In this document: in pieces, positions 4,442 to 26,259 of the stretch | Position numbering within the stretch: position 1 is the first letter of the stretch | Layout of the letters: each line of letters begins with the position of its first letter | Source: Basidiobolus heterosporus B8920 | Lineage: Eukaryota > Basidiobolomycota > Basidiobolomycetes > Basidiobolales > Basidiobolaceae | DNA: 26,259 bases | Assembly: GCA_000697455.1 (NCBI GenBank) | Contig: JNET01035512.1 | Location: forward strand, 1-26,259 | Direction: 5' to 3' | Notes under the pieces: generated by a model | The model's input: the letters and a program-made list of their open reading frames with translations, nothing else | What the model was told of the DNA's origin: nothing | Databases searched by the model: none | Program-made: the position numbers and the translations under genes

Positions 4442-7400
4442 ATGTCAAAGTTCCTCAGTAGAGTGGGCAATCAAATAGATGTGTTGCAACGCCGGTTAGA
4501 GTCTGGAAACAAACCGACTGTACAATTTAGCCCTTTGCCCGATTCACCACCCGAAGAATTTTGCACTTCAGTAGCTGACGATTTACCACCAGGTCGGAGA
4601 AAAGACTTGAAATATCGTAGAAAAAGAAGGCAAAATACTCTGCTTTCTTTGTTTGGTATAGACCCAGTCCGCGAAAAACTAGGAACCTTTGAAGGTGTAT
4701 TTGTTCCTGTATGTTTGTCTATCTGGGGGATAATGCTTTTTGTCCGACAAGGCTATATCATTGGGCAAGCAGGCTTAGTCGAGACTTTTGTGATGTTCAT
4801 CGTTGGCTACCTTATTGCATATTTTACCACTCTTTCTATTTCGGCCATTTCAGCAAACGGAACTGTTCGTGGTACGCTCTATTTTTTCTATTTTTTTGAC
4901 ATTTATTCAGAGTTAAAGAAACGTGGTTATATTTTTAGGTGGAGGCCCTTATTATTTGATTTCGCGCTCTCTAGGGCCGGAATTTGGTGGTAGTATAGGA
5001 TTAGTCTTCTGGGTTGGAACCATTCTTGGTGGAGTCATCAACTTACTGGCCTTTGTTCAACCCTTAATATCAACCTTTGGAGTGCAGCAAGGGGCCCTGC
5101 TGAACTTTTTACCTGAAGGGAAAGTAAGTTACTCAAACGTATACAGCCTTATATGAATCGCGTTGACCAATTTTCGTACACTTTTCTAGTGGTGTAATCT
5201 TTTCTATAGTTCAGTTTTGTTACTTTGCTGTACTGGTGTTTGTCTCATCGGGTCAAAGGTATTGGCTATTAGTTTATTGATATCTAGACATTCATTCTAA
5301 CCTCCACGCTAGTTATTTGCTCGAACATCAATATTTCTTTCATTTATTATCCTTATTTCCACGTTGATTATTTTTCTCTCATTCTTTATCCGGTCCCCTT
5401 TTGTTGACGTTGATAATGGTATTGAATACACTGGTTTGAGCATCGAAACACTAAAGGAGAACTTGTGGCCAGAATATTCACCTTCAGCGGAGAACCCGAG
5501 CAAGGTGGAGAACTATCAAAGTATATTTGCTCTAGTATTTCCGTGTTTTGTCGGGATTATGGCAGGTAGTTCAACCATCTCATACTATTCATCAATGGTA
5601 CTATATTAACTCATATTTATAGGAACCTCAATGTCTGGAAATCTACGCAAGCCCAGCAAGTCGATCCCTAAGGGAACTCTGGCTGCCGTGGTCGTCACCT
5701 TCATGCTCTATATGATTATCAATATTATGCTGGCTGCTTCTACCACTAAGGAGACGCTATTGAAGCGGTTGAGCATTCTTCAAGACATTTCCATCTTTCC
5801 TATCATGGTTGTTGCCGGTGCATTCGCCACGGCTACTTTCGCCACCCTCAGTGCTTTGATATCGTCAGCAAAGATTATCCAAGCAATTGCTAGGTGAGTT
5901 TTTAGTAGGATTGAGCTTGAACCAGTCATTAACATTTCATACAGAGATCACCTTATTCCAATATTGTCTCTCTTTGACCAAGGAACGGACCGGTCCGATG
6001 ATCCTACCTACGCCATTATCTTCTCCTACATTCTGATTCAAATCTTGCTGTTTACCGGAAGCATTGGTGTGGTGGCACCATACTTTACAATTCTGACCAT
6101 TCTGACATTTGGCATCACCAATCTTGCTTGCTTCTTGCTCAAGATTGGTTCTGCTCCCAACTTTAGGCCCTCATTCCATCATTTCAAATGGTACACCGGG
6201 TTGATTGGTGTCTCTTTGTGCTTTACTACCATCTTTATTATCGATCCCCTTCTGGCTACACTCTCTACAGCGTTCATGAGTATCATGTTTGGAGTCATTC
6301 ACTATACCACCTTGCCCAAGTCCTGGGGAGATGTCACCCAGAGTCTGATATATCACCAAGTCCGTAAGTATTTGCTAAGACTCGATACTCGCAAAGAGCA
6401 TGTGAAATTCTGGCGGCCTCAGGTAACTTTCGGAATCCAACACGATGCCCTGCTCATAACAAACTAACAGCCGTTGCAGATCTTGCTTCTGGTTAACAAC
6501 CCTAGGAACAACTATCATCTGATTCAATTCTGCAATTCACTCAAAAAGGGCTCCTTGTATATCCTGGGCCATATACTAAAAGGAAACTTCCGTACCAACT
6601 TGAACGAATTCCGAAAACAACAGAACGTCTGGCTAAAGTTCGTGGACATAACGCAGATCAAGGCATTTGTCCAGTTGACCATCTCTGATTCGGATAGATT
6701 CGGGGCTCGCAATCTGATTGTGGTAAGTCAGGGGCCCGTAAAATTCTACGTGTACAATATGCAATGGCTAAACATTTGGTTAGGGCTCCGGACTGGGTGG
6801 AATGCGTCCCAACATCGTAGTGCTTGGATTCTTCAACTCCTCCGGCCATGAGGGAAATCAAACCAACAAGAAGAAGCACGTCTCTATCCCAATCGTTGGA
6901 TCTCTTCCTACCGACCGAAACAAACAAGAAACGCCAATACCCATTACAGACTACGTCTCTATTATCGAGGACACGCTAGCATTGAACAAAGCAGTCGCAA
7001 TTGCCCACGGATTCTCGAATCTTCGGGATTTACCACCTCTAGATGAGAACAGCAGTCTTTTCTCGGCGCACTCTGGACAGAAATCTCGTAAGAAATACAT
7101 CGATATATGGCCCATTCAATTGTCCATTCCTAGCGCGTACAATGAAAATGGATACCTGACCAATTTCGACACATACACTATGGTGCTTCAAATGGGATGT
7201 ATCTTGCATATGGTCCCATACTGGAAGCAACACTTCACTCTTCGAGTCATGTGCTTTGTGGAACGTCGGAGCGACGTTGAAGAAGAGAGGAGAAGGGTTG
7301 AGGTGCTGTTAGAGAACTTAAGAGTTGAAGCAGAGCTTCATGTTTTCTGGTTGGATTGTGAAGAACTTACTACGTACTCGGCCATTGTCAAAGGAAAACA

Positions 7401-7968
7401 CATCTCCCATGAAGATGAGAATCTTGAGCAGCTATCGCCACCGAATGGGGTTGATAACGGAGAATCAGCGAGTGTGCCCATTGAAAGCGGGTCCTCTCAA
7501 TATCTACGCTCATCCGGAAACAACTTTAGCCAAGTCTCACTGAGCTACTCACAATCCGGTGTTGTTGGTATGAAGATCAACGTTCCCATTCCAGAACGCG
7601 GGGATGATCATTTGAGTGAGGACTCCGACCTGTCTGATATGGAGGAGATCGAGGAGGAACACACGCATAGTTTTCCGCCCTCAACGGCAGGATCGGTTGC
7701 TACTAGTCAGGAGACTCACAGTAACTCCTCTACCGAATTCAACGACCTTCCTCCCCACGCTCAAAACATCATTTTAAACGAGTTGATGCGCCTACGTTCC
7801 AAAGACACCTCGATCCTCTTCACTTCCCTACCAGCACCAGACGCTGGTACTTGTGAAGACCAGGAGAAGTGTGAATATTACATGAGTGACCTAAAGCTCT
7901 TGGTGAAAGATCTCCCACCCACCTTTCTAATCCACGCCAAGTCCATGACTGTCACCACGCATCTTTAG
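4442..7968 (+). CDS. VHC1: Cation-chloride cotransporter, SLC12 family (fungal Vhc1-like)
   Basis: Eight exons (4442-4871, 4939-5123, 5190-5258, 5313-5565, 5623-5893, 5945-6422, 6480-6722, 6784-7968) give 1037 residues, close to yeast Vhc1. A basic cytosolic N-terminus leads into LGTFEGVFVP (residues 80-89), the first transmembrane helix of the family. Next come GGGPYYLISRSLGPEFGG across the first junction, and SGNLRKPSKSIPKGTLAA after helix 6, both strong SLC12 signatures. About 12 membrane spans end near residue 520. The cytosolic C-terminal domain contains FWRPQ/ILLLVNNPR, DRFGARNLIVGSGLGGMRPN and a final LPPTFLIHAKS. Family members move Cl- together with K+ (or Na+); in yeast the homologue sits in the vacuole membrane. 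An acidic, Ser-rich insert (DSDLSDMEEIEEE) near residue 925 may be a regulatory loop. The fourth and fifth exons join within GTSMSGN. Transported ion not provable from sequence. Confidence 0.92.
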
Positions 7969-8546: not shown

Positions 8547-10766
8547 ATGTTCAAACGCTTCACCTTATTTCCCGAGAGATCCATACCAGCGCTTCTTCTG
8601 AAGAAACGTTCGGATCAGAAGAACATCGCCACCCAGTCACCCCTTATCTTAGCTCGAAACGAGACAGCCCATAGTACTCCAGTCGAAACGTCCACTTTTG
8701 GCATCAATAACTCGGTCGTAGCTAACTTTCAGAATGCTCTCGTACAAAGAAATGCGGATGCAGCTTGGAACGCTTTCAAATATATGATAGACAACCAACT
8801 CGAAAGTAAACTAACCGCCAACCAACTTTCCCGTTTACTTCAACTACTGAATGGGTTTAAAGGAAAATCCGGAGAGATCCAACAACGTTGTGCTCATGTG
8901 GTATTCTATATTGACCGATTAGACGCAAAAAAGATGTTCAAAAACGCTCGGGATTATTCTCCCTTGGTTTCTCATTACGCAAAACGTGGTCAGGTGGGTG
9001 AGGCCAGATCGTTGATCTTGGAGATGATTGATCGTGGAGTTCAACCGGATGCGGTGATTTATAACGACTTGATCAACGCTGCAGGCAAGATCAACCCGGA
9101 ACAAGCATTCTCTGTCTACGACGCTATGTTACAGCAAGGGATTGCCCCTACCAACGTGACGTTTAATATCCTCCTGAATATATGTAAACGTCAACGTAAA
9201 CTTGATTATGCTACCAGAGTCCATAAGGCAATACGAAGCTCTAATGTACGCCCAGACAGTTCAGCCTATAATATCCTCATCGATATCTACTCGAAATATA
9301 ACCGATTGGATCAAGCGATCGTTACTTACGATGAAATGATTGCTAAGAATGTCGTTCCGGATACCGTCACGTATAACACACTTTTGAACGCTTTTGCCAA
9401 AAAAAATTCGATGGAGGGAGTGGACAAAATGTTCGAGACTATGCTGAGTCGGAACGTTCTGCCTAATGTGGTCACATTCAGTATCTTGATCGATGCTTAC
9501 GCAAAACATCGGCATATCGACAATGCTATGAAGATTTACGAGGAAATGCTGCGTCGAAACATCCCTCCGGACACCCTGATCTATAACACTCTCATTAACG
9601 GACATGCGAAGAACTTCAATCTTGAGCAAGCCATGATACTCTACCATGAGATGGAAGCACGTCGCCTTCCTCGGAACATCGTCACCTACAACACGCTGAT
9701 CAATCTGCATCTGAAGCAAGGGAACTTCGATGAGGCCATGGGCCTGTTCAATGAGATGGCCCTAGGAAACACCCAACCTGACGTGATTACCTTGAACACC
9801 ATCATCAATGCATGCGTGAGAAACTCCAGACTTGACGAAGCCACTCAATTCCTGGAGAACTTTGCTCGATTCAACATCCGTCCTGACACCATTACTTACA
9901 ACACGCTGATCAACGGACACGTCAAGAATTCGAAGCTTGATCATGCGGTCAAACTCTTCACAGAGATGCAGGCCAGGCATCTTTGCGATATCGTGTCTTA
10001 CAATACTCTCATTAACGCCTACGCGAAGAATCTCGACTTGGAAGGAATGCGAGGAATTTACCGTAGTATGCGTCAACACAAAGTCTCCCCCGATGTGATC
10101 ACCTTCAATACGATGCTCAACGCGTACTTTGAAAGGCCGGCACTCGATAGATGTCCAGAATTACTCAAGGAAATGAGCCTCGCACGAGTCTATCCGAACA
10201 TCAACACGTACAATACTTTGATCAACGGATACTCCAAGCATGGAGAAGTCTCTCGGGCCTTGGAGATCTACAAAGAGATTCAATTCCATGGGGTCCGCGC
10301 CAACTCTACCACCTATGGAATCTTGATGAACTGTTACAACCTCTCCGGAGACCTCGAAAATGTTTTTAACATTTGGAATCAAGCCAAAAGACAAATTCCT
10401 GACAAGGAGAAACTGGCAGCCCCACTCTCAGCCCTTTTGGACTCCTGTGGATATCATCAAGATTACCATCGACTCCAAGACCTCTGGAATGAACTAAAGG
10501 CTACCAAGCATCCTATCACTGAGAATAACTTCAACTCTTACCTGGAAGCGTTGTGTCGTTGCGGCAATTATTCAGAAGCTATCTGGGCTTTTACTCATGA
10601 CATGAAAACACTTGGCATACAACACACTCTGAAGACGTGGAGAAGCCTGTACACGGAACTCAGGAACAGGTATCCCTCTGGCATTGAGGAAATGGCCATC
10701 CTCATTGAAAACTCGTGGCCCAAACTCTATCCAGAATTCAAACGTTCTCTAGAAGAGGACATGTAA
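8547..10766 (+). CDS. Pentatricopeptide repeat (PPR) RNA-binding protein, P-class, probably mitochondrial
   Basis: One uninterrupted frame of 739 residues from ATG 8547. The first 40 residues are rich in Arg/Lys/Ser and lack acidic clusters at the start, as in a mitochondrial targeting peptide. Residues 134-586 form 13 consecutive PPR motifs, eleven of exactly 35 residues and two of 34, with the consensus VTYNTLINAYAKN...LDEA...M...PD. At least two degenerate repeats follow to about residue 690. P-class PPR proteins bind single-stranded RNA, one base per repeat, and stabilise, process or help translate organelle transcripts. The base-reading residues are unusually uniform (mostly Asn at 5 and Asp/Asn at 35). 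No catalytic domain (SMR, DYW, PRORP) is visible. The regularity is plant-like rather than yeast-like. It is intronless, unlike most neighbours. Family firm, target and organelle inferred. Confidence 0.95.
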   Translation: MFKRFTLFPERSIPALLLKKRSDQKNIATQSPLILARNETAHSTPVETSTFGINNSVVANFQNALVQRNADAAWNAFKYMIDNQLESKLTANQLSRLLQLLNGFKGKSGEIQQRCAHVVFYIDRLDAKKMFKNARDYSPLVSHYAKRGQVGEARSLILEMIDRGVQPDAVIYNDLINAAGKINPEQAFSVYDAMLQQGIAPTNVTFNILLNICKRQRKLDYATRVHKAIRSSNVRPDSSAYNILIDIYSKYNRLDQAIVTYDEMIAKNVVPDTVTYNTLLNAFAKKNSMEGVDKMFETMLSRNVLPNVVTFSILIDAYAKHRHIDNAMKIYEEMLRRNIPPDTLIYNTLINGHAKNFNLEQAMILYHEMEARRLPRNIVTYNTLINLHLKQGNFDEAMGLFNEMALGNTQPDVITLNTIINACVRNSRLDEATQFLENFARFNIRPDTITYNTLINGHVKNSKLDHAVKLFTEMQARHLCDIVSYNTLINAYAKNLDLEGMRGIYRSMRQHKVSPDVITFNTMLNAYFERPALDRCPELLKEMSLARVYPNINTYNTLINGYSKHGEVSRALEIYKEIQFHGVRANSTTYGILMNCYNLSGDLENVFNIWNQAKRQIPDKEKLAAPLSALLDSCGYHQDYHRLQDLWNELKATKHPITENNFNSYLEALCRCGNYSEAIWAFTHDMKTLGIQHTLKTWRSLYTELRNRYPSGIEEMAILIENSWPKLYPEFKRSLEEDM

Positions 10767-11055: not shown

Positions 11056-11958
11056 CTAGCTCTTGGAGAAATACTCGGGAAGGATGTAGTGGAGTTTTTC
11101 TGATTTACAAAGCTCAGGTGGGGTCATGATACCATATTTCATACCACCGATGATACCCTTGGTAACGGTTCCATCAATGATTCCTTGCTCGAGTGGTTCC
11201 AAAATAGCGAGCAATAATTTCTTGGCGTTACTAGCGTTGGTTACCATGGTTTTCATGACGGCGTCGGCAGTAACTGCCTCCTCAGCTTCTCTCCAGCAGT
11301 CATAATCGGTTGACATGCAGATCATCTGATAGGCGATTTCGGCTTCACGGGCCAGTTTGGCCTCAGGTAAAGCGGACATGTTGATGACACCACCACCCCA
11401 GGAGCGGTATAGGTTAGACTCGGCGCGGGTAGAGAAAGCAGGACCCTCCATACATATAAGAAGTTTGTCCTTGTGAACAGTTAAGTTTTCAACGAGGTGG
11501 CTGTGTTTGGCGATGATTTCAGCCGCAGGAGGACAGAAAGGATCGGCCAAAGAAGCATGTCCAATGATACCTTCACCTTCGAAGTAAGTTGAAGGACGAA
11601 TACCCTTGGTACGATCAATGATTTGGTTAGGAAGAACGAAATGTGTGGGTGCAAGTTCCTCTTGAAGTGAGCCAACAGCGGAGAAAGCTACAATAAGCTT
11701 AACACCCAGAGATTTCAAGGCAGCAATATTTGCTCTGGCTGGAACTTCGGAAGGACTGAACTCATGACGAATACCATGACGAGCCAAGAAAGCAATTCTT
11801 ATGCCACTGGGGATTTTTCCAATCAAAATCTTGGAAGAGGGATAGCCCCAAGGAGTATTTGGGTACACTTCCTCGACGATCTCCAAGTTGTCTAAGTTGT
11901 AAAGGCCGGAGCCACCGATAACCGCAATGTTCACTGGATGCATGGTAACAAGTGTCAT
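11056..11958 (-). CDS. MEU1: S-methyl-5'-thioadenosine phosphorylase
   Basis: An intronless frame of 300 residues, the family's normal length. It cleaves 5'-methylthioadenosine, the by-product of polyamine synthesis, with phosphate to adenine and methylthioribose-1-phosphate (EC 2.4.2.28), feeding methionine salvage. Seen motifs: phosphate-binding GGSGLY (15-20), ARHGIRH (59-65), FSAVGSLQEE, GPAFSTRAES, the substrate-methionine region VINMSALPEAKLAREAE and the purine-site STDYDCW. These separate it from ordinary purine nucleoside phosphorylase, which has Asn in place of the Asp of DYD. The ATG at 11958 is the first in frame; an alternative at 11943 (MHPVN) would drop five residues and sits as close to the first beta strand. 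It is divergently transcribed from the methyltransferase at 12323. Confidence 0.96.
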   Translation of the reverse strand: MTLVTMHPVNIAVIGGSGLYNLDNLEIVEEVYPNTPWGYPSSKILIGKIPSGIRIAFLARHGIRHEFSPSEVPARANIAALKSLGVKLIVAFSAVGSLQEELAPTHFVLPNQIIDRTKGIRPSTYFEGEGIIGHASLADPFCPPAAEIIAKHSHLVENLTVHKDKLLICMEGPAFSTRAESNLYRSWGGGVINMSALPEAKLAREAEIAYQMICMSTDYDCWREAEEAVTADAVMKTMVTNASNAKKLLLAILEPLEQGIIDGTVTKGIIGGMKYGIMTPPELCKSEKLHYILPEYFSKS

Positions 11959-12322
11959 TCGAGAAAATTTCCAACGGGTGGTATTTCAATAATCACTTGT
12001 TCTTGTTTTAGACTAGAATTACTAGAAATGGAGAAATGATCCAACCATGTTTGTTTATCTCAAATTTTCTTTTCACCCTGATAAAGATGGAATTCTATCA
12101 GTAACCTTCACCAATGAACAACGATCATATACCAGATCTCAATTTTTCTGTCTCAGCTTTACTTAATCAAGTTTAAAACTGCCATTATTCAAACTACATG
12201 AACTTGATGATTAACTGGATTTGGTAAATCTATTTTTGTTATTGATATTCCCTTAATGGTGAAATGGATTAATACCGAAATCATTTCAATCCATTGATTC
12301 CTTGGTTTACTAGTTGACTTTC
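11959..12322. other. Shared promoter region between MTA phosphorylase and carnosine methyltransferase genes
   Basis: 364 bp of AT-rich sequence between two divergent starts. No gene, repeat or clear TATA box stands out. Confidence 0.5.
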
Positions 12323-14176
12323 ATGGACCATCACGCAGCCTACAACGAGCACCATGGACATGATCATGACCATGGTCACGGTCATGATCATGGCCACGAT
12401 CACGGACAAGCACATCGCGACGTCAAGGAAGAACACTTGAAAGAAGAGCAAGAACACTTTAGAAAGGTTATCGCCACTTTCGCCTCCTATCGCGTTCATA
12501 CCCATGGGATCAATAAGAGAAAGAAGGAAAGTTATGCCGCACTTTCCGACGAGCACAAAGCACTAATCCCCAACTATTTGGATCGGTTAAGCCAAATTGA
12601 CCAGGCCATCAATGATAACTATACTTTCTTAAAAGCAATAGTTGCTGATCATCAGATCTTCGTGGAACAAGCGGGTCAGGTAATATACACGTTTCTTAGA
12701 GTTGTTTCTTCTCTTCTTGTCTCTGTGCTTTTATTCACCTTAACCCTTAGGAGGTTTCTCATCTTCAAGTTCATCCTAATAAAGACCGACCAGCTGTTTC
12801 TGAATTCGATATGGATAAGTTGCGCAGTACTCTAAAGCAGTTTGTTCGCGACTGGAGTGAGAAGGTACTTTCAATTGTTGCCAAAAACATAGCTGTACTC
12901 GTATCTAATACCAAGTTGGCACCAGGGAAAAGCTGAACGCGAGGCAGCTTATTCACCAATCTTGGAGGAACTCGAAAAATACTACGGAGACGTTCCAGTG
13001 GAGAAAAGGTGGGTTTTCACTTTAGAGCGATTCAAAGGCTAGTCTTTTTTGTTGAACCAACTTCCCCGTAGAGGAGAACTTCGAGTTTTGGTTCCAGGTG
13101 CTGGTTTAGGCAGATTGGCATATGATATCTGTAAGAAAGGTAATGTTGATTAACAATCATCATGCTCTACCTCTACTTTGCTGTAACTAAGCCGGAATTC
13201 TGGTTCTCTAGGTTTTAGCTGTCAAGGTAAAGTCATTGAACATATAGTGATTCGTGAATAGAATGCAGGTTAATTCCCATCCCACAACATCGCAGGCAAT
13301 GAGTTCTCTTTCTACATGGTAAGTTGAGCGAATAATAGCCAAGTAAACAAAGACTAATATTAAAGAAATTTCTCGTTCATGTAGCTTCTCGCGTCCAATT
13401 TCATCTTGAACAAGTAATCTTAATTCACTCACGATATCGGAAAAATACAACACTAAACAACATTCAGATCATCCAAGGTTGGTCAGTTCGAGATCTATCC
13501 CTTCGTCCATTCTCAATCGAATGCTCTCAGTGAAGAGCATATTCTACAAAGTGTGCGTATTCCTGATGTACTCCCCTCCGGACTCCCTCCCAATTCCGAC
13601 TTTTCCATGGTTGCTGGGGACTTTTTGGAAGTGTATGGAGCGGAAAGTGATAGCGTTGGTATGGTGGTCTTGCGAGGACTTTACCCTAAATGTTACCTAA
13701 GCCTAACTTTTTACAAAACATACAGGCACCTGGGACTGTATTGTAACCTGCTTCTTTATTGATACCGCCAAAAACATCATCCAATACCTGGAAACCATTT
13801 ATAAAGCACTAAAGAAGGGTGGTGTCTGGATCAACCTGGGTAAGCACATCCCAGCATGGATATCGAATCAAGCAGAGGATATGTTCTCAATTCTGTTGCT
13901 TTACTAAAGGGCCACTTCTATATCACTTTGAAAATACCCCTGGCGAGATGTCGATCGAATTAACTCTAGAGGAAGTTAAAGACTTGGCCAAGAAAGTCGG
14001 ATTCAACATTCAGGTAACGGATTCCCTACATTCTCTTGCCATTCTCTGCTTACTAACCGACGCTTGGTAATTGTAAACAGCGTGAGGCAATGCATGAATC
14101 TACATACACCGCGAACGCTCATTCCATGCTGAAATACACCTATAACTGTGCCTTTTTCTCGGCAATCAAGGAGTAA
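12323..14176 (+). CDS. Carnosine N-methyltransferase-like protein (N2227 family)
   Basis: Eleven exons: 12323-12679, 12751-12864, 12926-13008, 13072-13139, 13212-13226, 13296-13318, 13385-13413, 13468-13658, 13726-13839, 13910-14013 and 14081-14176. They total 1194 nt, 397 residues, matching the family (human CARNMT1 409, yeast YNL092W about 400). The SAM-binding glycine motif is [15 protein letters not shown] (residues 190-204). Others are [36 protein letters not shown] and the ending [11 protein letters not shown], all typical. The enzyme transfers a methyl group from S-adenosylmethionine to the imidazole of carnosine or of His-containing peptides; the natural substrate in fungi is uncertain. 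Residues 3-31 are very His-rich (13 of 29), alternating with Gly and Asp, and lie outside the catalytic fold. Exons 5, 6 and 7 are only 15, 23 and 29 nt. An AATAAA lies at 14237. Confidence 0.92.
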
Positions 14177-14323: not shown

Positions 14324-17300
14324 TTACTGTTCGTTCACATTACCGATTGGTAAAATGGTTACTTGAGCATTTAGATCCTCACTTAAATCCTCTATTTTAC
14401 TATTAGTTGGGGACTCAACGTTACCCACTGGTAATATGGATTCCGAATCCCCTGCCACTGTTTCGAGTCTAACATCACCTATGGGTAATATGGGCACTGG
14501 CGCGTTTAAATCCTCTGTTACGTCGTCAGATGATTTAGGTTCAATGTCGCCTATAGGTAATATGGATACTGCCGCGTTTAAATCCTCTGCTACGTCGTCA
14601 GATGATTTAGGTTGAATATCACCTATAGGCAACATGGATACTGCTGCATTTAAATCTTCTGTTACTGTATCAGATTTAAGTTGAGCATCGGTCAATGACC
14701 CGTCGAATTGATGTCCACTCGACTCGCCCAGAGTAATCAGTTCAGTTGGATTGGAATCATGAAGCATACGATCGCAGTCGAAGTCCCATCTAGCTCTCCA
14801 TTTGTGTTGTTCACATTGTTGCTTGGTCCATGGTGTACCATACACCAATGGACTAAACGAAAAGAACACATAAATGACCACAAGTGAGCTAACCAAAAGC
14901 ACCAACCAACGAGACTTGGTGTTCATACGAGAGGTGAGCAAATCGAATGTAACCCCAGTTAAGAGCATTCCAAAATAAATGGCCGGTAGATAATGGTGCA
15001 GGAAAAGTTGTCTTCCCATTAAAAAGAATGGTAGGTAGTGTAAGAACCATCCAAGGAAGAAGAATCCTGCTGACGAGAAATAAAGATTGAAATACTCTGT
15101 ACGGGTTAGAATAGAAGCAGGTTAGCTCGTGGATTCGTGGAATGAGTCAACGTGGGTATTACCATAAGCGCCGTCATGGTAGCCTCTCTTTTGACGAAGG
15201 ATCAATAAAGCATTGATGGCAATATAGAGACCGATACACCCTGCGGCTGTCCACCAGATGATGGGGTTTCCGAGAAGATATATTTGCGAAGAGTCTTTAG
15301 ACCAGAAGCTGATCCCTCTGTTAATGAAAGGCCAGGCAGAAGGCCTTGAGTCGAAGGGATGAGAGTCCGTCAAACCGTTGTTGATTGACCACATACGTTT
15401 CTGGAGTTCCCAGAATTTCTGGAAAAACCCTGGCTTACGATAGTTCACTCTAGGGGCGTCTTCAGGGACTGGAGGTGGAATGAATCACTGGTAAACTAAA
15501 TAAATAAATATGTTGAATATCCTTACGTCTGGGATCGGTATTGGTGTCAATCAACCATAAGGTTTTCTCAAGCTTGGGGCTCTTCATACAAGTAACCTCT
15601 TGCTGGCCAGATGCCCATTTGGGTAATTTCACGTCATGCGAGAACAAGTGGCAGTTTTGTCCGATGTGAACTAGTCTGAACCTACTGTAGATGGCCATAA
15701 GTCTGTCAGCAGACTCGGGCACGCGGTCGTCGTGCTCGATAATTTCTACTCTCCAGTTGTCATTCATATCTCCCCATTCGTAGCCGCTACAAAGGAACAG
15801 TTCAGTTTGCTATGGCTTACATTCGTATCAAGAAGGAAAGCCTCTTATACCTGACTTCGTTGTGGTGTTCTGCCTCGGTGATTGGGGCGCGAACGTCATG
15901 ACTGTGAAGACGTTTTCCAGTAGTAGGATGGAGCAAACGAACGATATCGCCGTTCTTTACCCACTCCAGTTCAGTTTCGTTGTATGGGACTTCGGTGTCT
16001 TCCATTTTGGTGATAACCCACCAGTTGTTCTCATCGCGATGTGGATAGAGGGTGATTTGTTGTTCTGAATGAAATGTTGAATAAGCTCATTGCAAGGGGG
16101 TAACGGGTGTTTTTGGACTTACGCATGCTTCCAGTAGGATAGAAGAGATCATGAGAATGAAGATATCCTCCATTAGTGTTTAGATGGCGGATGTAGATCT
16201 TAGAACCGTAAGCAACATCTATGATAACTTCGCGTAAGACATCAATTATACAAAAGCAAGTCCAAGTGAAAATCCTTACCAGCTGGAGTATCTCCAATGC
16301 CACCTCCACTTAGGGTACTTTGGAACTCTGGCGACATAAATCCATTTCCATCCCCGCTATTTCTCAAACAGAAAAAGTGGATACGGAATAGAACCAAATA
16401 GACTATGAGTGGGACAACGATCAAGCTGAACGCACGAGCAAAGAAGTGCTTAGCAAACACTCTCTAAAACACCAAGATTAGGATTAGGATTATGATTAGA
16501 AGAAACTGCACAGAACCCACGAAATCTTACCGGTGAGACTGAACAATCTAAGGCAAACTCCCATAGTTGTTTGACAGTAGAAAGTCCGATCAGAGCAATT
16601 ATAAACAAACCAACCCATTTTACGCTATGTATAATGACTGATGAGCTCGGGCGAGACGAGCAGAATTAGAGCTAAAAAATACCTGACAGACAGTCCAAGG
16701 AATAGACCAGTAGAAGTTAGCCAGAACCACCATGAGGCAGCAAATGGACTAGGAAATTGGTATGTTTAGTGAGAATTACATCGTTTGACTATCACACATA
16801 ACGATTACCTTTCGCTCTGGTTATGGAATTGCACCCAGGAGAGAGCGGTAAGAGCGGTAAAGAACAACAATGGAGAATCCAAGAGAATTAATCGCGATTG
16901 GGTTACCAATGCATTATCTATTCAAAATAAACATACAATTAGGCCTACAATCACTACAAATCACTAATAAAATATGTACTCACCAAATGTCACGAAAAGT
17001 GCAGTCAATGTGGCAGCAGGTGTGGAATGACCTGATAGCTTTACGGTTAAATAAGAGATGGGTACCAAGAGCCAACCCATGACTGCTGGTAGCAGGCGCA
17101 TTGCGACATATGGGACTTTTGGTTCGATGTAATCTCTATTAAAAAATTACAGATCAATACCTATACTACAACTCACAGGATAGAAAAGTTAACCTACTTT
17201 CCAATATCACTAAAGTCAAAATTTCCATCGAAACCGCCAAGCCAACCAGCTGCGGCCAATAACATTTTGGCAAGTGGAGGATGCACATCCATGAAAAATC

Positions 17301-24587: not shown

Positions 24588-26259
24588 TCATTCAACGCTA
24601 CTGTCCGGTTCTATTGTTTCAACTGGTAGGGTGTCAAGGGTTTCGCCAGGTTCGTTGGTGGCTATCTCCATAATAGTTCCTTCTGTGGTGTTGCTTAGTA
24701 GTATACACTCGTTAATAGTCTCAAATTCTTCAGGCTCACTCTCAGTGTTAGAGCCCGAAACATGGTCATCCTTACTATTTGAGCAACGGCACTCGGCTTT
24801 ATTTCTTAGGCGTCTTCTGTGTCTAGTTGCAGGTGCATCCAGAGATTCATTGTCACAATGCTTTCCTTTACATTTAGATACGGCTTCATCTTCTGTCTGA
24901 GAAGACCTAGCTCCTCTTCTATGTCTAGCCTGAAATTTAATTTCCGGATCGCAGTCATGGTATCTTCCACCTCGTCTGGTTTTAGGTACAGGCCCCTGGT
25001 GTCTTCTACCGCGGCTAGAGGAGAATCCATCTTCAGACCCATCACTCCAATACCACCCACCATCCCTGGGAGGGAATTCGTCTTCAGGTTCATAGCTCCA
25101 TGATCTTCTACTATACATAGGAGGAAATCCATCTTCAGGCCCATTACCCCGGTGTCCTCTATCGCATCTAGGAGGGAGTCTTCCTTCAGGCCCATGGCCC
25201 CGTGGCCTTCTACCATGCATGTGAGGAAATCCGTCTTCATGTTCATAGCCCCAGTGCCATCCACCCCACCTGGGAGGGAATCCCATCTCAGGTTCAGAAC
25301 TCCTATGTCCCCCACTGTGTCTAGGAGGGAGTCTGTCATCAGGCCCAGGGCCCCATGGTCTTCCACCGTACATAGGGGGAAATCTATCTTCAGGCCCTGG
25401 ACCCCATGGTCTTCTACCGTGCATAGGGGGAAATCCGTCTTTAGGTCCATAGCCCCAGTGCCATCCACTACGCTTGGGAGGGAATTCTACCTCAGGTTCA
25501 GAACTCTTACTTCTTCCACTGCATCTAGGAGGTAGTCTGTCTTCAGGCCGAGGGCCCCATGGTCTTCTACCGTGCATAGAAGGAAATCTATCTTCAGTCC
25601 AAGGACCCCATGGCTCTCTACCGTGCATAGGGGGAAATCCGACTTCAGGCTCATAGCCCCGGTGCCATCCACCACACCTGGGAGGGAATCCCATCTCAGG
25701 TTCAGGACTCATGTGTCTTCCACTAGGAGGGAGTCTGCCATCAGGCCCAGGCCCCCATGGCCCTCTACCGCACATAGGGGGAAATCCGACTTCAGGCCCA
25801 TAGCCCCAGTGCCATCCACCACACCTGGGAGGGAATCCCATCTCAGGTTCAGGACTCATGTGTCTCTCACCGTGTCTAGAAGGGAGTCCGTCATCTGGCC
25901 CAGGGCCCCATGGTCTTCTACCGTGCATACGGGGAAATCTATCTTCAGGCCCACCGCCCCTATGCCATCCACCACACCTGGGAGGAAATACCATTTCAGG
26001 CTTAAGACCCCAATGCCCTCTAGTACACTTTGGGGGGAGCCTGCATTTAAGCTCAGGACTCCACGGTCTTCTACCATGCGTGGGAGTACACTCGTCTTCA
26101 GCCCCGTCACTCAAATGCCATCCACCACATCTGGGAGGGTGCCCTATTTTAGGCCTAGTGCCTTCGTGCTGTCTACCGCATCCGAAAGGAAGCCTGTTTT
26201 CAGATTCAGATTCCCAATGTCCCCCATAACGTCTGGGAGGAACCATGCCCTCAGGTCCA
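24588..26259 (-). CDS. Large Pro/Gly/His/Arg/Trp-rich tandem-repeat protein, C-terminal part
   Basis: The frame is open from the window edge at 26259 to the stop at 24588; an ATG at 26246 lies within repeat phase (GPEG precedes it), so the protein very likely continues upstream. From the edge to 24981 it is built of 25 units of 17 residues (one of 15). The core is FPPRCGGWHWGYGPE, varying by type. The last 130 residues are not repeated: a basic, Arg/Lys/Cys-containing part (HRRRLRNKAECRC) followed by an acidic, Ser/Thr/Glu-rich end. No signal peptide or membrane span can be seen in this part. I do not recognise a family. Because the unit is 51 bp, the other frames also stay open, but only this one carries on into a sensible unique tail. 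Structural, matrix, nucleic acid-binding or metal-binding roles are all possible; none is shown. Confidence 0.7.
   Translation of the reverse strand, partial: GPEGMVPPRRYGGHWESESENRLPFGCGRQHEGTRPKIGHPPRCGGWHLSDGAEDECTPTHGRRPWSPELKCRLPPKCTRGHWGLKPEMVFPPRCGGWHRGGGPEDRFPRMHGRRPWGPGPDDGLPSRHGERHMSPEPEMGFPPRCGGWHWGYGPEVGFPPMCGRGPWGPGPDGRLPPSGRHMSPEPEMGFPPRCGGWHRGYEPEVGFPPMHGREPWGPWTEDRFPSMHGRRPWGPRPEDRLPPRCSGRSKSSEPEVEFPPKRSGWHWGYGPKDGFPPMHGRRPWGPGPEDRFPPMYGGRPWGPGPDDRLPPRHSGGHRSSEPEMGFPPRWGGWHWGYEHEDGFPHMHGRRPRGHGPEGRLPPRCDRGHRGNGPEDGFPPMYSRRSWSYEPEDEFPPRDGGWYWSDGSEDGFSSSRGRRHQGPVPKTRRGGRYHDCDPEIKFQARHRRGARSSQTEDEAVSKCKGKHCDNESLDAPATRHRRRLRNKAECRCSNSKDDHVSGSNTESEPEEFETINECILLSNTTEGTIMEIATNEPGETLDTLPVETIEPDSSVE
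24981..26259 (-). repeat. 51-bp tandem array with three unit types in order
   Basis: About 25 units of 51 bp. Three types alternate: A (FPPRCGGWHWGYGPE), B (FPPMHGRRPWGPGPE) and C (LPPRHSGGHRSSEPE). The order is mostly A-B-C, with A-B-B-C twice, so the higher period is 153 or 204 bp. The 5' units (nearest the window edge) and those nearest the unique tail are the most diverged. Confidence 0.9.

Follow-up and report, generated by a model that had tools for sequence, protein, structure and literature searches.

Code residues kept in place in Basidiobolus pentatricopeptide repeat proteins suggest that fungi may share an RNA code known from plants

A PPR gene with thirteen regular motifs

The stretch of DNA analysed here (the window) covers positions 1 to 26,259 of contig JNET01035512.1 from Basidiobolus heterosporus B8920. 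One open frame on the forward strand (8547..10766) encodes a pentatricopeptide repeat (PPR) protein of 739 aa followed by a stop, and is the only PPR ORF within the 26 kb. Its neighbours are exons of an SLC12-type cation-chloride cotransporter (4442-7968, forward strand) and a PNP_UDP_1-family phosphorylase (11056-11958, reverse strand), which we take to be MTAP. The PPR protein matches the Pfam family PPR_2 at 430.7 bits and an E-value of 4.1e-132, hence its repeats are not due to chance. Fifteen Pfam families match in total, all of them repeat or solenoid families or families named after repeat-containing proteins. No catalytic family, be it E/DYW or another, scored above the Pfam cut-off in either the whole protein or the C-terminal piece.

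The protein is built from four parts, all encoded on the forward strand. The first 52 residues (8547..8702) are predicted to be disordered (pLDDT <50) and are presumed to form a mitochondrial presequence. The composition of residues 1-45, with eight K/R, three D/E and an amphipathic stretch, fits such a role. Residues 54-133 (8706..8945) form a helical region of two helix pairs that resembles Basidiobolus family members in alignment and predicted structure, and Pfam gives only a sub-threshold TPR match there. Thirteen contiguous P-type PPR motifs follow at residues 134-586 (8946..10304), and both a profile scan and direct reading returned the coordinates given in the original prediction. Eleven motifs are 35 aa long, while motifs 2 and 10 have 34 aa each. 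The residue pairs at positions 5 and 35 read, in order, SD NT ND ND NN SD NN ND ND ND ND NN NN, identical to the earlier reading at all 13 places, including the count of 11 motifs with Asn at position 5 (Asn5). The code positions thus carry polar residues in 13/13 motifs, with S or N at position 5 and D, N or T at position 35. The last part, residues 590-739 (10314..10763), is a C-terminal module of degenerate PPR-like helices common to fungal paralogues, as recognized by profile and predicted structure. Pfam reports a PPR match barely over its cut-off in this piece and nothing else.

An AlphaFold2 model based on a 9-sequence alignment (A2; mean pLDDT 86.8, pTM 0.63) predicts a continuous helical solenoid, with helix pairs running without break from residue 54 to 738. 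Two helical pairs precede the 13 motifs, and four pairs plus one last helix follow them. The earlier count of 13 repeats thus holds for the contiguous motifs, and leaves out the six further helical pairs that are predicted to flank them. The best matches found for the model by Foldseek include PPR proteins of plastids as well as dPPR-U10 and PPR10. Query-normalised TM-scores were 0.29-0.56 over the best 15 matches, and low TM-scores are usual for flexible superhelices. The closest solved structures by sequence (PDB search) are designer PPRs, with dPPR-U8A2 first and dPPR-U10 second. The mitoribosomal protein rPPR5/mL102 also appears among both sequence and fold matches. With tandem motifs of about 35 aa, a predicted two-helix solenoid, polar code residues and an absent catalytic C-terminal domain, the window protein is, by sequence and predicted fold, a genuine P-class PPR protein of the usual type.

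A family of PPR arrays in Basidiobolus

At least 15 ORFs with PPR arrays, the window ORF included, were found in the window and the fetched regions of this genome. The genome search reported 148 matches and 150 of 196 candidates were scored, making 15 a lower bound. Regular repeats had been described as rare in well-studied fungi, which agrees with PMC7430664, but this one genome has at least 15 PPR ORFs. For five other PPR ORFs, an orthologue is present in B. meristosporus or B. ranarum (56-81% identity). The pairs are C395 with P0002 (56%), C361 with P0007 (68%), the two ORFs of C147 with separate parts of P0123 (68% and 81%) and C94 with P0182 (65%). The two C147 ORFs (L013 1194-6560, reverse strand) are neighbours and match successive parts of P0123, a B. 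meristosporus protein of 1759 aa that also contains esterase Pfam families. P0123 thus looks like the product of merged gene models. Basidiobolus genomes are treated in PMC7466969.

The best match of the window protein is a B. meristosporus protein. The closest among the listed matches are P0002, with 32% identity, and P0043, with 37% identity over 56% of the window protein. No close orthologue was found among the best 120 of 1758 and the best 120 of 1739 matching proteins. Like the window protein, P0002, P0008 and P0043 (B. meristosporus) and P0061 (B. ranarum) carry long P-type arrays, annotated at the source as 'TPR-like' or hypothetical. P0043/P0061 and P0008 align to the N-terminal region of the window protein, and P0002 and P0008 share its C-terminal module, whereas P0043/P0061 do not carry it. 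At 28-37% identity to the window protein, with many code places differing, none of the four is a close orthologue. P0043 and P0061 are orthologous to each other, with 75% overall identity and no difference in any of the 10 code pairs, and neither has a near counterpart among the fetched PPR ORFs of this genome.

The C-terminal module, of about 150 aa, ends 8/15 PPR ORFs of this genome at 57-236 bits. Four of these ORFs served as profile seeds (window, C70, C395 and C361; 225-236 bits), and the non-seed ORFs scored 157 (C368), 102 (C278), 80 (C94) and 57 bits (C101, over part of the module). The module likewise forms the C-terminal end of the Basidiobolus proteins P0002 and P0007, which were also seeds, and of P0182 (82 bits), P0088 (81 bits) and P0008 (61 bits). 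The module profile did not recover it in P0043, P0061 or P0123. Among 194 other proteins the score never exceeded 39 bits, and the six best matches lay at an internal position. Pet309, Cya-5 and Ppr4 are COX1 translation factors of fungi. A search with residues 600-735 for a tie to a named fungal factor returned nothing at an E-value of 0.001 among 80 candidates.

Conservation of the code positions

Positions that read bases should differ among the motifs of one protein and stay fixed, place by place, between orthologues. We compared 67 aligned motifs from six orthologue pairs of related genes (15, 9, 22, 6, 5 and 10 motif pairs, mutually non-independent) and ranked all 35 positions by chance-corrected identity (kappa). 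The motif profile was derived from motifs of this same genome, those of the window included, and a motif was excluded before counting if it scored <8 bits or had gaps in its pairwise alignment. Position 5 ranked first of 35, being identical in 62/67 motifs (21.7 expected from mismatched motifs) at a kappa of 0.89. Position 35 was identical in 56/67 motifs, with a kappa of 0.74 and rank 9. The original prediction had named free variation of both positions among orthologues as grounds for its rejection. In the orthologue pairs of related genes the outcome spoke against rejection, and the window protein itself is without a close orthologue among the listed matches. Bootstrapping gave a median rank of 2 for position 5 (5-95%: 1 to 5) and of 10 for position 35 (3 to 19). 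With any one pair left out, position 5 always ranked first and position 35 ranked 7 to 16. In single orthologue pairs, position 5 took ranks 1, 8, 3, 19, 2 and 3. Of the 59 cases in which both residues at position 5 were N, S or T, 57 preserved the base class (purine or pyrimidine), compared with a mean of 0.55 under random re-pairing. The chance correction was introduced after an earlier run on three of the six pairs. By raw identity, this run placed position 7 first (34/35) and positions 5 and 27 tied second (33/35), with position 35 identical in 29/35.

A control set of mostly plant sequences gave a similar picture. It was drawn from 194 listed proteins, either non-fungal or unnamed, which also include algal, amoebal and unnamed metagenomic sequences. 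Of 2150 candidate pairs, we picked 75 disjoint ones with 50-80% identity. The pairs were picked by identity, with orthology not proven, and those with <4 usable motifs were dropped. Over the 939 motif pairs, position 5 ranked first and position 35 ranked fourth. The 35-position conservation profiles of the fungal pairs and the control were correlated at a Spearman coefficient of 0.90. Because position 5 is fixed in the orthologue pairs and the control looks alike, a plant-like PPR code is probably read in this lineage. The simplest reading of these alignments is that a code of the plant type operates here with position 5 dominant, and with only moderate support for position 35.

The window protein differs in code from its relatives. 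In comparison with two paralogues and three distantly related Basidiobolus proteins, it shares the residue at position 5 in 32/55 motifs and that at position 35 in 31/55. As the code places are so poorly kept, the window protein probably has an RNA target of its own. In kappa conservation between paralogues and distant relatives, position 5 ranked sixth and position 35 fourth of 35. Diversifying selection at the code positions, considered as an explanation, finds no support in these ranks.

A predicted site rich in pyrimidines

Structures of designer PPRs described in PMC4837458 have Asn5 contacting pyrimidines and Ser5 or Thr5 contacting purines, with ND corresponding to U and NN to U and C equally. 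The code reading of the original prediction agrees with this account. The predicted site of the window protein would be 5'-G-Y-U-U-Y-G-Y-U-U-U-U-Y-Y-3', mostly pyrimidines, which is a sound prediction rather than an extraordinary one. Asn5 occupies 11/13 motifs of the window array, compared with 68/146 across the genome's remaining PPR ORFs (one-sided binomial P 0.006). With a pooled frequency of 0.49 the P-value becomes 0.010, and correction for the 15 arrays gives a family-wise P of 0.056. The Asn5 excess is thus borderline after correction and the pyrimidine lean is modest. The share of Asn5 differs among the 15 arrays of the genome (permutation p 0.0098). A PPR ORF on contig C234 (L014 785-2611, reverse strand) has Asn5 in 9/10 motifs, so the window gene is not the sole pyrimidine-leaning array of the genome. 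Among other listed relatives, mostly from plants, Asn5 is found in 758/1367 motifs. The 112 mostly-plant relatives with at least eight motifs have a median Asn5 share of 0.54, and 4/112 equal or exceed 11/13, a comparison that leans towards similar arrays because the relatives are matches to the window protein itself. Calling the site strikingly pyrimidine-rich was thus an overstatement, given that other arrays reach an equal share.

Mitochondrial genes were sought in the assembly with profiles for COX1, Proton_antipo_M (NADH dehydrogenase) and cytochrome b, with zero candidates each. In 100 kb of mitochondrial DNA with 65-80% A+T, both strands considered, 0.23-0.27 chance matches to GYUUYGYUUUUYY are expected, and 1.8-6.4 if R replaces G.

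Recent internal duplication as a source of the uniform codes has little support. Copies of the longest DNA repeat family within the array are 63-73% identical to the reference of that family. Mean motif identity is 0.28 in the window array and 0.20-0.35 in the other arrays, although the highest identity of a single motif pair, 0.58, is the highest of all 15 arrays.

Proposed mode of action and alternative explanations

We suggest that this is a nuclear gene for a P-class PPR protein, probably mitochondrial, which would bind one stretch of mitochondrial RNA through a plant-type 5/35 code and act sterically, a reading we consider fairly probable. We infer the organelle, the RNA target and the mode of action of the protein. 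What the analysis demonstrates is the motif array, the predicted fold, the family membership and the fixation of position 5 in related orthologue pairs. After import into the mitochondrion, the 13 motifs would form a superhelix holding a single-stranded, mostly pyrimidine stretch of 13 nt. The N-terminal motif of PPR proteins faces the RNA 5' end, and motif 1 would accordingly be placed there, with the bases read by the plant-type code. Because no catalytic domain was found in the Pfam searches, steric action would be the most likely mode. PPR10 acts sterically by protecting an RNA end or by keeping a segment unpaired. The window protein might likewise cap an RNA end and shield it from exonucleases or, alternatively, hold a segment of a UTR or intron unpaired for translation or splicing. 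The C-terminal module common to the paralogues would supply contacts used across the family.

The Asn5 excess might say nothing about the target. Asn5 is the commonest residue at this position in the generic PPR consensus, and an array close to that consensus could be an upper-tail draw whose real site may be mixed. Such a chance origin is possible but doubtful. The family-wise P of 0.056 is what such a draw might produce, and so is the frequency of Asn5 in mostly plant relatives, a few of which reach at least 11/13. The arrays of the genome, though, differ in their Asn5 share beyond chance, and related orthologues retain their position 5 residues motif by motif, which makes it unlikely that Asn5 is neutral filler. 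A protein of mainly structural or ribosome-associated function, comparable to the mitoribosomal rPPRs of plants and without sequence reading by all 13 motifs, appears improbable. The matches to rPPR5/mL102 in sequence and fold, as well as the conserved C-terminal module that would not read bases, are in line with such a function. However, the motifs are close to consensus with polar residues at both code positions throughout, and designed RNA readers are the closest matches.

The plant-like regularity could also stem from horizontal transfer of the gene from a plant, which we regard as very improbable. Plants contribute most homologues among the matches listed, and a plant-to-fungus transfer of PPR genes has been proposed for Rhizophagus irregularis (PMC5982333). 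Yet the top match is a Basidiobolus protein and the N-terminal region aligns to Basidiobolus proteins. The C-terminal module also separates the eight ORFs of this genome and five Basidiobolus proteins, at 57-236 bits, from the 194 others at up to 39 bits.

Our preferred reading of a mitochondrial RNA binder with a plant-type code can be set against known PPR systems. The designer proteins dPPR-U10 and dPPR-U8N2 (5i9f, 5i9d, 5i9g, 5i9h) share near-consensus motifs and ND/NN-type codes with the window protein, and the designer set holds its best PDB sequence matches and is among its best fold matches. The designer proteins are synthetic with ends taken from PPR10 (PMC4837458), whereas the window protein is natural and has fungal end modules. 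Plant PPR10, a match in both sequence and fold, is likewise a natural P-class array and binds RNA. PPR10 is a plastid protein, however, while the window protein is fungal and its target is a predicted one. Dmr1/Ccm1 of yeast is a mitochondrial PPR protein of a fungus whose RNA target has been determined, and PMC7430664 proposes only a rudimentary code for it. The window array, compared here by description, is regular and fits the plant code. Plant restorer-of-fertility-like (RFL) proteins resemble the window family in being P-class with codes differing between paralogues, and RFL genes are under diversifying selection (PMC5138203). In contrast, the window protein is fungal by relationship, its gene is the single PPR ORF in 26 kb, and change at position 5 does not look accelerated between paralogues (sixth of 35 by kappa). 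Membership in the plant RFL clade was considered and set aside, as the terminal regions appear to group the window protein with Basidiobolus proteins.

According to PMC7430664 (2020), no animal or yeast PPR target had been identified before Dmr1 and the validity of the code outside plants was open. Our literature search found no work combining Basidiobolus and pentatricopeptide and, among the titles and abstracts listed, Dmr1 was the only fungal case in which the PPR code had been studied. The alignments suggest that fungi, too, may use the PPR code established in plants. With 15 or more PPR ORFs in this fungus, and position 5 fixed between orthologues of its lineage as in plants, the question of the plant code becomes directly testable. 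The window array, with its near-consensus motifs and simple predicted site, is a good first protein for testing the code outside plants. The interest of the locus lies more in an early-diverging lineage with a testable plant-like code than in the count of pyrimidines. More tentatively, such an early-diverging fungal lineage might possess a plant-grade code of one motif per base across a family of regular arrays with common end modules. Some codes would be fixed, whereas others, including that of the window protein, would have been redirected or be specific to a lineage, much as in the RFL genes of plants, and would follow changes in mitochondrial RNA. The window protein would then be a reader of a pyrimidine tract. 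We hold this broader scenario to be speculative and rather unlikely as a whole.

Other features of the window

Three further ORFs of the window contain tandem repeats or stretches of unusual composition. On the forward strand, an ORF at 12314-12835 has a His/Asp/Gly-rich stretch with short tandem repeats at 12351-12405. The reverse strand encodes the C-terminal region of a protein O-mannosyltransferase (PMT_4TMC) at 14324-15019, with a tail containing 2.7 copies of a 72-nt in-frame repeat. A reverse-strand ORF of 552 aa at 24588-26246, without a Pfam match, consists of Pro/Gly/Trp-rich repeats with a period of 51 nt and 18.4 copies (TRF), and part of it is also covered by an open frame on the opposite strand.
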